Positions 5,994 to 14,142 of a stretch of DNA of 35,827 bases are shown here, piece by piece; the stretch's first letter is position 1, and every line of letters begins with the position of its first letter. A program made the translations under genes and the position numbers. The DNA is taken from NCBI GenBank assembly GCA_944323405.1, contig CALUSJ010000013.1, forward strand, positions 1-35,827, read 5' to 3'. Origin of the DNA: Candidatus Gastranaerophilales bacterium. GTDB taxonomy: Bacteria > Cyanobacteriota > Vampirovibrionia > Gastranaerophilales > Gastranaerophilaceae. The notes beneath the pieces were generated by a model. That model made no database searches and was not told where the DNA came from. It was given only the letters and a program-made list of their open reading frames with translations.

Positions 5994-8594
5994 TTAGCCC
6001 AAAACTTCTTTAGAAAGCAATCTTTCCATTTCATACATAATATTGATGAGAATGCTGTTGACACCATAGTAATCGCCGTCAACTCTATAAGTATCGCTGT
6101 TGTCTGTTGCGCCTTCAATATAATCACCATAACCATATATTGAGGCACCATTAGCGGAACTTTGATCTTTTACTGCTTCAAGTTTAGCAAATGCTGTTTG
6201 CTGTGCTTCCTTGAATAATGCAATGATTCTTGAAGCATCAATTGTATCACTATAAGAAGATACATAATCTGTCAGCATAGCTTGCATTGCCTTATTAACC
6301 GGGTCATTATCTCCAGAATCTGCGCTTGTTAAGATGATAATATTGCCAGCCCCGCCGTTGCAAGAGTATGATGTTTCACCTCGAGATGCTATAGATACCC
6401 AGTCATCACCGCCTGCAGTTGAGTCATTTGAGTAGTATTTATCAAGGGTCTTGAAATAAGTCCTGTAATCAGCAGTTGTTTCATCTCCTTTGCCGTTTAC
6501 ATCAGCTCCGGCCCAAGTACCAACACCATTTAAGAGACTCTTGTTTTCAACATTTTTGATATAGTTTCTTGCGTTTTCATTTGTTGAAACCTGAATTAGT
6601 ATCTTAGAGTAGTTTTTAACTGTTGCTTCTAATACTGTACCTATATTTATTTCATCATACATACTTCTTAGAACTGTAGTATCTGAAAGTGTTGTGAATA
6701 AGGCTATATTAAATAAGTTGTCTAACTCATTGCTTGTCAGTCCTAAACCGCTGATTTCATCTTTATATTGCTCTTCAATTTTGCTTCTCAGTTGAATATT
6801 AAATAAATCATTGAGTTCTTGATCAACAGGATCATCCCAAATACCTTTGTTTTCACTATAATTGTCGCCAACAAATAGTACATAACCGTCTTTATTTAAT
6901 CTATATGCTAATGAACTGCGAGCTTGTGATGCATTCACTCCTTTATAAGTAACGGAGTTATTAATTTCACTAATAATCGCATCTGATTCATCGGTTACGG
7001 TTACTTTTTCTTCAACTGTTTCTTCCTTTTCGGGTTCTTTTTCTTTTACATCACCAATGCCTGCATTAACTTTTTCTACATATTTAGCTACGGCATCAGG
7101 GGTTTTGCAATCGTTAATTACTGAACTGAAGTTAGATGATTCAAAGATGTCTGCTAAATATTCTTCATATGCTTCACCCTTTGCACTTACACTTTCGCAA
7201 TAGGTTATTGCTGCATCTTTTACCATATCTAAAGCTTTTTCAGGATTAGATTTCTTAATTGCATTTGCGTTGCTTAATGATTTTGTAAAGAATTGATATA
7301 ATTCATCTGTACTTAAATCATCTATAGCTCCGCTTTCTGTTAGTATATCGGTATAATTTGCCCTTATTTCATCGACTACCCATTCAATCAATGCATTCTT
7401 ATCCAAAGAGTCATTCTTGATAAACATTCCTTCATTAATTTTTTCGACAGCATCATCAATTATAGATGAATACGAATCATAATAAATACCGTTAGTAAGC
7501 GCTTCTGCGACATCGGTTCCTAATTCTGATTCGATAGCTTTGTATAGTTCTGAAGTGTTATCTGCAAATATCATAACATCTCTTACTTCTATTGATCTTG
7601 CAATATTTTTATAATACGAAGTTTGTTTAAAATCTTCAATTCCGTACCCTAGAATTGTATTATACTGTTCTTGTGTAGCATTCTTAAGAATTTCATCAAT
7701 ATATGAAGATACTGCTTTGTCATAAACTTCTGCATATTCTTCATAATTTGCTTCATTCTTTATTGCCGCTAAATTTTCTTTAAGTGTTGTTTCTGCAACA
7801 CTCAATTGCAGTTGATTTAAGCCTGCACCCGGTGTTTGAACAGTTGTATTATTTGTTGTAGAATCAGTACTACTACTTGGCGGAGTTGTTCCGTTTGACG
7901 CTTGCAAACCGCTTGTTGCGATATATGAATCTATAATATCAGCTAAGTTTTTCTGGATATCATCTAATGAAGCATTTTCATCAAGGCTGTCTACATAGCT
8001 GTCTATTAATTCGTTCAAATCCTTATCACTTCCAAATGCATAGTCATATTTTTGGCTTAATTCAGGCATGACTTTATCTAAATACTCAGCTGCAATATAT
8101 TGGGCCGAGATTCTGTTTACAATGCCAGTTGCATTTTCCTGTAAATACTCTAATAAGCTTTCATTAGTACCGCCATTTTCAATATATGATTCTAATAATG
8201 TCAAAAGTTCTGAATTGATTTCTTCTTTCCAGCCTTTTGAAGATGAAACGGGGCATTCAAGTTCATTAATAAATGAGTTTAATGTTTTATACATCTCTAA
8301 TTTATCTTCTAATACATCTATTTCATTTGAATCAAGAGTGTGTTTATTGTGCAAATCGGCACCACTTATCATAGACTTTGATTTATTTGTATCAAATTCA
8401 TTCCAAAATTTATTTATCAAATCATCCTGGGCTGTAGAAGACATTTGTTCGCCATTCCAGCTAAAGAAGTTTTCTTCCATAAAAAGACGAAACTCATCTT
8501 TTACAATAAAATTATCGCCATTAACGTCGGCCTTTTTTACCCAATCCCCTTGAGTAGATAAAAATTGGTAAACTCTTGATAAATCATTAGACAT
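5994..8594 (-). CDS. large EF-hand-containing protein of unknown function
   Basis: I do not recognise this 866-aa protein. Residues 23-34 form a full EF-hand loop (D23, N25, D27, F29, V31, E34). A second, degenerate loop starts at D68 (DTNKSKSMISG). A Ser/Thr/Pro-rich linker (TTPPSSSTDSTTNNTT) lies near 240-255 and an acidic Glu/Lys linker (EKEPEKEETVEEK) near 530-545, dividing it into three mostly helical blocks. There is no signal peptide or membrane segment. Composition is acidic and rich in Asn, Ser and Tyr, as in secreted or surface proteins, but the export route is not visible. The ATG has AAGGAG 9 nt upstream, and the gene has its own terminator. The divergent upstream region carries HLR1-like site B, in the same relative orientation as at the flagellin gene. 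Confidence 0.8.
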   Translation of the reverse strand: MSNDLSRVYQFLSTQGDWVKKADVNGDNFIVKDEFRLFMEENFFSWNGEQMSSTAQDDLINKFWNEFDTNKSKSMISGADLHNKHTLDSNEIDVLEDKLEMYKTLNSFINELECPVSSSKGWKEEINSELLTLLESYIENGGTNESLLEYLQENATGIVNRISAQYIAAEYLDKVMPELSQKYDYAFGSDKDLNELIDSYVDSLDENASLDDIQKNLADIIDSYIATSGLQASNGTTPPSSSTDSTTNNTTVQTPGAGLNQLQLSVAETTLKENLAAIKNEANYEEYAEVYDKAVSSYIDEILKNATQEQYNTILGYGIEDFKQTSYYKNIARSIEVRDVMIFADNTSELYKAIESELGTDVAEALTNGIYYDSYSSIIDDAVEKINEGMFIKNDSLDKNALIEWVVDEIRANYTDILTESGAIDDLSTDELYQFFTKSLSNANAIKKSNPEKALDMVKDAAITYCESVSAKGEAYEEYLADIFESSNFSSVINDCKTPDAVAKYVEKVNAGIGDVKEKEPEKEETVEEKVTVTDESDAIISEINNSVTYKGVNASQARSSLAYRLNKDGYVLFVGDNYSENKGIWDDPVDQELNDLFNIQLRSKIEEQYKDEISGLGLTSNELDNLFNIALFTTLSDTTVLRSMYDEINIGTVLEATVKNYSKILIQVSTNENARNYIKNVENKSLLNGVGTWAGADVNGKGDETTADYRTYFKTLDKYYSNDSTAGGDDWVSIASRGETSYSCNGGAGNIIILTSADSGDNDPVNKAMQAMLTDYVSSYSDTIDASRIIALFKEAQQTAFAKLEAVKDQSSANGASIYGYGDYIEGATDNSDTYRVDGDYYGVNSILINIMYEMERLLSKEVLG

Positions 8595-13267: not shown

Positions 13268-13934
13268 CTTTTTTCTTTTCCCTAATCTTTTGTATAAACT
13301 TTTTCAAGTTAAAAATTTTTTTGTCGTCATCTATTTTTGTATCATCATCTTCTGCGTTGCTTCTTTTGAAGATTTTAAATAAACTTTCAAATTTTGACTT
13401 TACTATACTTATAAATTCAGCAACTTTTTTTTCTACAAAAGCTTTAATTTCCCCAAATATAGCATTTAGTTTATCTTGAATATCTATCACTTTTTGTTTT
13501 AGTTGGGACAATTTGTCTAATGTGTTTAGAATAATATTCGGAAGGCTGCTTATTCTACTAATAATAGGCAAGATAATGCTAGTAATTGCATAGGCAGCAG
13601 GTTTGAAAAAAGTGGTGTTTGATATTCGGTTTGCAAAATCAACCATTTTTTGAGCCATTTTTTCTATATTTTGCTGGAATTTTAAAAGCGCTTCAGTATG
13701 AGCTTGAAGATTTTTTTCGTGTGCTTCAAGCCTCATTTCTCTTGCTTTCATCATTGCGCCTATCATAGCACAATGGTGATAACTCCATTCACCAGCTTTT
13801 TGAGCTCTTTCTCCTGCTCGCATGCCACCACCTCCTCCTCCCATGCCGGAGCAGATAGGGCATGCTCCCGGTGACATCCCATGCGGACAAAGCCCGCTTT
13901 TTACATTATTAACATTTGAAGTTACTCCAGCCAA
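13251..13934 (-). CDS. unknown CPHG/CPIC cysteine-motif membrane protein under a cobalamin riboswitch
   Basis: This 227-aa protein is not recognised. Near the N-terminus C16, H18, C25 and C28 (CPHG-x5-CPIC) form a compact likely metal site, followed by a hexaglycine run (32-37). A YHHC cluster lies at 52-55. A coiled coil follows (about 60-105), then a hydrophobic segment (about 107-131, likely one membrane helix), a second coiled coil (135-190) and a charged tail. The start is TTG at 13934, chosen because AAAGGA lies 8 nt upstream inside the riboswitch P13 stem and because the next ATG (M20) would cut the Cys/His motif. The 3' end overlaps the next gene by 17 nt. Confidence 0.75.
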   Translation of the reverse strand: MAGVTSNVNNVKSGLCPHGMSPGACPICSGMGGGGGGMRAGERAQKAGEWSYHHCAMIGAMMKAREMRLEAHEKNLQAHTEALLKFQQNIEKMAQKMVDFANRISNTTFFKPAAYAITSIILPIISRISSLPNIILNTLDKLSQLKQKVIDIQDKLNAIFGEIKAFVEKKVAEFISIVKSKFESLFKIFKRSNAEDDDTKIDDDKKIFNLKKFIQKIREKKKDGTKN

Positions 13935-13939
13935 TAACA

Positions 13940-14142
13940 GCTTCCTTTCAATTTAATGTGCCGCAATGAAAGAAAGCAAGAACTCTTATTAAGCGTAAAA
14001 ATAAACGCTATATGCAATATTGTGGCTCGCAATTTGCATATTAAAAAGCTAATTAGCTTATATGAGTGTTCCGGCTTTTACGGTTGCGGCACAGTCACGG
14101 ATTTCCACCGTAGTTTCCTCTTTTTGGTTTTTAATACTTATA
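13940..14142 (-). ncRNA. cobalamin riboswitch with P13 hairpin that hides the ribosome site
   Basis: Minus-strand core (14121-14076): GAGGAAAC, then ACGGTGGAAATCCGT (P4 hairpin), then CTGTGCCGCAAC and CGTAAAAGCC-GGAAC. These are in the order and spacing of the cobalamin riboswitch consensus. P1 is TATAAGT (14142-14136) with ACTCATA (14067-14061), 6 of 7 pairs. The compact P1-enclosed aptamer of 82 nt lacks the long peripheral arms, like Cbl-II types. Downstream, 13977-13967 pairs with 13950-13940 as an 11-bp P13 stem with one GU pair. Its loop carries TTGCGGCACA (13966-13957), the perfect complement of core L5 TGTGCCGCAA (14093-14084). The 3' arm contains the SD (13948-13943). Ligand binding should stabilise the kissing loop and block translation. 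Two small hairpins lie between P1 and P13. Confidence 0.88.

Follow-up and report, generated by a model that had tools for sequence, protein, structure and literature searches.

The 35,827-nt stretch of Candidatus Gastranaerophilales (Vampirovibrionia) DNA analysed here (referred to as the window) carries on its reverse strand, at positions 14136-13940, what is well supported by sequence evidence (probability about 0.93) as a cobalamin riboswitch of the AdoCbl-II type, predicted to act as a translational OFF switch controlling an operon of two genes, p1 and p2. While this kind of riboswitch is already known, its target genes are new. The operon is almost confined to species lacking both B12 synthesis and the known importers, and it is this complementary phylogenetic profile that has not been described before. 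The p1-p2 operon may represent an order-wide, riboswitch-marked candidate for the missing B12 uptake machinery in one group of gut bacteria, and its description extends the cobalamin regulon by three protein families (p1, p2 and a third, p3) that are without any annotation.

Identity and class of the aptamer

The initial annotation of this region had proposed a cobalamin riboswitch on the basis of its sequence and had suggested comparison with three Rfam covariance models, RF00174, RF01482 and RF01689. When this comparison was carried out with cmscan, the aptamer was confirmed as AdoCbl-II: RF01689 matched positions 14136-14056 of the reverse strand with 43.1 bits (gathering score 36.5, E 2.9e-7) over the full length of the model, 1-81, and this is the sole RF01689 match in the assembly from which the window comes. 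At the same aptamer the class I type model RF00174 (Cobalamin) scored 24.1 bits, under its gathering score of 31.5, and RF01482 also stayed below its gathering score on the window. P1, the outer closing helix, had been annotated as present; in the covariance model alignment several of the P1 pairs of the window sequence are non-standard, which makes this detail weaker than annotated.

The expression platform

The segment UGUGCCGCAA in L5/P5 (14093-14084, reverse strand) is perfectly complementary over 10 nt to UUGCGGCACA in L13, the loop of the P13 hairpin (13966-13957, reverse strand), as had been noted at the outset. A complementary run of at least 10 nt arose in 10 of 20,000 dinucleotide shuffles of the 119 nt downstream, and in the minimum free energy structure of the leader the L5 and L13 segments are paired with one another. 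Among congeners, double-sided changes between L5 and L13 were found at two positions, one of which is A-U in 10 sequences and G-C in 9, and a good L13 match is absent from at least 3 of the 33 congeners. The initial annotation would have given up its reading had there been neither a covariance model match nor conservation of this pairing in relatives, and the double-sided changes speak for such conservation.

The P13 stem of 11 bp that had been described is likewise borne out, one of the pairs being G-U: its 5' arm, the anti-Shine-Dalgarno strand (13977-13967, reverse strand), pairs with the 3' arm at 13950-13940 of the same strand, which carries the Shine-Dalgarno sequence AAAGGAAG 6-7 nt ahead of the TTG start of p1 at 13934. 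The probability that this Shine-Dalgarno sequence is unpaired was 0.004 in the window as opposed to 0.31 in shuffles, and the mean values were 0.20 against 0.46 in the window's genus and 0.10 against 0.36 in loci on contigs. Both its placement within the P13 arm and the translational type of the switch, as initially annotated, are upheld by this sequestration in a conserved hairpin, at an accessibility below that of shuffled sequence.

An additional hairpin lies between the aptamer and P13 at 14040-14011 (reverse strand), where the stem UAUGCAAAUUG/CAAUAUUGCAUA closes a CGAG-containing loop; it was recognized in the fold of the window and in an alignment of 32 congeners, which have a similar hairpin at the same place. 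The idea that in sister genera this hairpin provides the true L13 (GUGC/GCAC, CUGC/GCAG) was rejected, as in the contig loci a hairpin's own L5 paired with it no better than a foreign L5.

Conservation of the switch and variation of its platform

Of 57 relatives, 48 have a homologue of p1; across the class, p2 is present in 266 of 382 genomes. By covariance model, p1 is immediately preceded by the switch in 46 of the 48 relatives that bear this gene, namely in each of the 33 congeners with p1 and in 13 of the 15 p1-bearing genomes from other families; in G038 a degenerate copy can be seen upstream of p1 by eye, and in G051 no switch was found there. Of 80 loci on independent contigs, 78 have the switch upstream of p1, the exceptions being L137, which is without p1, and L164. 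G024, the only congener lacking p1, is likewise without p2, p3 and the switch. Beyond p1, p2 and p3, no neighbouring gene is shared by more than 21 of the 80 loci. The association of the switch with p1 is conserved across the whole order, and the switch is therefore not a chance neighbour.

The platform itself is more variable. Hairpins that take up the Shine-Dalgarno sequence are the platform type in family f1, while a terminator-like hairpin stands between the aptamer and p1 in four or more relatives from other families (G037, G038, G043 and G045). Among 79 contig loci, 29 have a TCCTCT segment able to pair either with an AGAGGA at the 5' side of the aptamer or with the Shine-Dalgarno sequence AGAGGA, and this dual pairing is a possible alternative layout of the switch. 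That the platform differs among lineages and the target gene stays constant suggests selection for cobalamin control of the p1-p2 operon. Each of these layouts predicts repression by cobalamin, a direction deduced from the sequences; activating corrinoid riboswitches have also been reported (PMC10653944).

The promoter that had been placed about 10 nt upstream of the switch did not hold up in the window, where promoter-like matches are at chance level (2 found, 2.7 expected). Of 102 relatives, however, 53 have a TTGAMW-N15-19-TANNNT motif in the 75 nt preceding the aptamer, where 5 would be expected. The window also has a terminator-like hairpin, ATGAGCCTTTGGGCTCAT, at 14236-14219 (reverse strand), with a T run behind it. 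This hairpin lies about 80 nt ahead of the aptamer, in the gap before a divergent DHA2-type MFS gene. Since nothing obvious upstream of it would need termination, there may be a short transcript from the minus strand at this place.

The downstream genes p1, p2 and p3

The first gene, p1 (13934-13251, reverse strand), encodes a protein of 227 aa from a TTG start, with long helices, a Gly-rich linker and an invariant CPHG-x5-CPxC motif (C-x-H-x6-C-x2-C). It is followed by p2 (13267-11798, reverse strand), whose first 17 nt are shared with the end of p1, making translational coupling of the two likely. In the p2 protein, of 489 aa, three transmembrane segments are clear and a fourth is weaker; two helices each run for about 75 residues, and the sequence is internally duplicated (hhalign probability 97, E 1e-10, 74 columns). 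The protein ends in KNGPPFVYS, of which NGPPFVYS or near variants are almost invariant. In 65 of the 80 contig loci p2 is followed by p3, a gene for a protein of about 150-190 aa. This protein (L131:5968-6492, forward strand, and homologues) is short and conserved, has an FDPxEEIGGAIL motif and matches no known family; in the window's genus its gene is displaced from p2 and adjoins a prepilin-peptidase-like gene in G000:C68, G014:C1 and G025:C9.

Known targets of cobalamin switches had been judged not to resemble the two downstream proteins, and both p1 and p2 indeed fall outside all known families. Searches of Pfam and NCBIfam gave no credible match to either, a PADLOC search for anti-phage defence matched neither, and PHROG gave only weak coiled-coil-type matches to p2 (E about 1e-3). 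Profile searches against the PDB returned nothing for p2 and coiled-coil-type noise for p1. A fold search against the PDB with AF2 models of the two proteins, which are of low confidence (pLDDT 64-65), gave no match at E <=0.001, its top entries being long-helix proteins of low probability that carry no meaning at this model confidence. No ATPase, beta-barrel or evident signal peptide is encoded by p1-p2. Several identities were rejected on these grounds: defence, phage and known-transporter proteins by the PADLOC, PHROG and Pfam/NCBIfam results, and the known cobalamin importers (BtuB, BtuC, EcfT) and B12-independent isozymes (MetE, NrdD) by the lack of a Pfam/NCBIfam match.

Other cobalamin switches in the order

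Other cobalamin switches of the order precede BtuB-BtuCDF, NrdD, MetE and OprB-CbiM. In the BtuB-BtuC-BtuF loci the switch is followed by a TonB receptor and then by FecCD and a periplasmic binding protein, and switch-controlled BtuB-BtuCDF loci were found in L113, L121, L123 and L128. In three loci, L138, L151 and L201, an nrdDG pair with its own switch is divergent from the switch-p1-p2-p3 unit. Given these canonical targets and the divergent nrdDG, p1-p2 belongs to a normal cobalamin regulon.

Some further arrangements can be listed here. The back-to-back switches lie at L138:4947-5062, L151:2778-2900 and L201:2630-2750, all on the reverse strand. A switch also stands before an OprB-family porin in L115:2567-3985 and L125:6581-8590 (both forward strand), from CbiC-bearing genomes, with CbiM next in L125; this porin is possibly one for cobalt or corrinoids. 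In G048, CbiM/CbiN come after the riboswitch-OprB gene. Behind a switch in L119 (L119b, about 6894-6973, reverse strand), the next frame opens MetE-like and continues radical-SAM-like; it could be what is left of a MetE gene, joined to the gene that follows.

Distribution of p1-p2 in relation to B12 genes

The distribution of p1-p2 was compared with that of CbiC, BtuB, BtuC, NrdJ, MetH and EcfT in the 57 relatives, the known importers in this profile being BtuB, BtuC and EcfT. CbiC, which marks de novo synthesis, occurs only in G034, G036 and G048, and p1-p2 is absent from all three. BtuB and BtuC are both present in five relatives, of which three (G040, G042 and G049) are without p1-p2 and two (G039 and G044) carry both systems. 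All 13 relatives that have NrdJ, the ribonucleotide reductase that depends on AdoCbl, and are without CbiC, BtuB and BtuC possess p1-p2, and in 5 of these (G038, G043, G045, G047 and G052) EcfT/CbiQ is absent as well. At the level of genera, p1-p2 and a known B12 source are mutually exclusive (Fisher p 0.0006-0.0025, with kinship ignored and many of the genomes being draft MAGs).

In the window's genus no BtuB, BtuC or CbiC was found, EcfT is absent throughout (genus g1), and NrdJ was not found in most congeners. A B12-binding radical SAM protein is present in most of the genus, and the B12 need of the congeners without NrdJ thus rests on such radical-SAM B12-binding proteins. Four p1-p2-bearing genomes (G005, G017, G019 and G023) show strong B12-binding matches in MetH-like frames, with MetH confirmed for G019.

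Proposed function and alternative explanations

In the proposed mechanism, binding of cobalamin would let L5 dock on L13 and stabilize P13, burying the Shine-Dalgarno sequence of p1, and p2, which overlaps p1, would be expected to be shut off together with it. When cobalamin is scarce, p1-p2 would be made, together with p3 in most genera. If the switch is read correctly, p1-p2 can tentatively be regarded as an inner-membrane/cytoplasmic module for acquiring or handling cobalamin in Gastranaerophilales, p2 being its membrane part and p1 a putative cytoplasmic partner that would bind a metal or corrinoid via the C-x-H-x6-C-x2-C motif. Such a module would serve species that have neither B12 synthesis nor BtuB/BtuCDF. 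A more specific version, held more tentatively still, is that p1-p2, mostly along with p3, form an undescribed class of acquisition system replacing BtuBCDF in B12-auxotrophic Gastranaerophilales, with the p1 CHCC motif as the site at which the corrinoid or its metal is bound. Several findings run against an uptake role: neither in sequence nor in fold do p1 and p2 resemble a transporter or a protein that binds corrinoids, Btu is carried alongside p1-p2 in G039 and G044, and NrdJ was not found in most members of the window's genus. As mentioned above, p1-p2 come without ATPase, beta-barrel or evident signal peptide, which leaves passage of the outer membrane unexplained on an uptake reading.

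The main alternative, which we consider less likely but a serious competitor, is that p1-p2 are a B12-independent back-up or low-B12 response, regulated like MetE and NrdD and replacing or protecting a cobalamin-dependent envelope or metabolic function with no direct contact with cobalamin. NrdD and MetE are indeed controlled by such switches elsewhere in the order, a switch-bearing nrdDG pair faces away from p1-p2 in L138, L151 and L201, and the de novo B12 makers do without p1-p2, as would be expected if they are never short of the vitamin. However, the BtuBC-bearing auxotrophs G040, G042 and G049 should need such a response and yet are without p1-p2, because of which the profile favours acquisition or handling over a low-B12 response; in addition, p1 and p2 show no enzyme-like family match. 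The initial annotation had suggested a corrinoid- or metal-linked membrane system. Its corrinoid side now leads, with support from the CbiC, BtuB, BtuC, NrdJ and MetH profile, while the role of p1 and p2 within it is deduced and the low-B12 response stands as a competitor.

Its metal side is improbable. Here p1-p2 would handle cobalt, zinc, another metal or a corrinoid precursor, with the CHCC motif of p1 as the metal site and cobalamin as a signal of cobalt sufficiency, as the invariance of C-x-H-x6-C-x2-C in p1 and the CbiM/CbiN genes behind the riboswitch-OprB gene of G048 might suggest; but the CbiC-bearing G034, G036 and G048, which need cobalt for B12 synthesis, are without p1-p2, and the motif could be merely a structural zinc site. 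That the switch is incidental, a decayed or unrelated riboswitch standing near p1 by chance, as the imperfect P1 of the window aptamer and the 80% completeness of its MAG could be taken to indicate, is highly improbable, being contradicted by the switch upstream of p1 in 78/80 contigs and 46/48 relatives, by the occlusion of the Shine-Dalgarno sequence and by the compensatory L5-L13 changes.

Relation to known systems

A search of the literature gave no mention of Gastranaerophilales together with riboswitch, and for Melainabacteria and riboswitch it gave one paper in which each term occurs once. Several B and K vitamins are listed as products in the 2013 genome paper on Melainabacteria, whose main text does not mention B12 (PMC3787301). 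Among known import systems, BtuB-BtuCDF is found in the same order behind the same type of switch and with a distribution complementary to that of p1-p2, which differ from it in having no TonB barrel, FecCD permease, ATPase or periplasmic binding domain. Routes of B12 entry other than Btu include BtuM and ECF-CbrT (cited in PMC6977713), of which BtuM acts on cyanocobalamin through a cysteine. As opposed to these, p1-p2 match no Pfam or NCBIfam family and EcfT is absent from the window's genus.

The window riboswitch resembles env8 and other class II cobalamin riboswitches (RF01689) in its aptamer core, its L5-L13 complementarity and a P13 hairpin that occludes the ribosome binding site (PMC10907184). 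It differs from env8 in that its Shine-Dalgarno sequence lies in the 3' arm of P13 and not in the P13 loop, in the extra conserved hairpin between the aptamer and P13, and in targets that belong to unknown families. Another example is the ppe2 riboswitch of Mycobacterium tuberculosis, which is likewise a compact, class II-like translational OFF switch with an L5-L13 kissing loop and a target of uncertain function (PMC11260477). While ppe2 shares its operon with cobQU (PMC11260477), p1-p2 have no cob genes nearby and are conserved order-wide.
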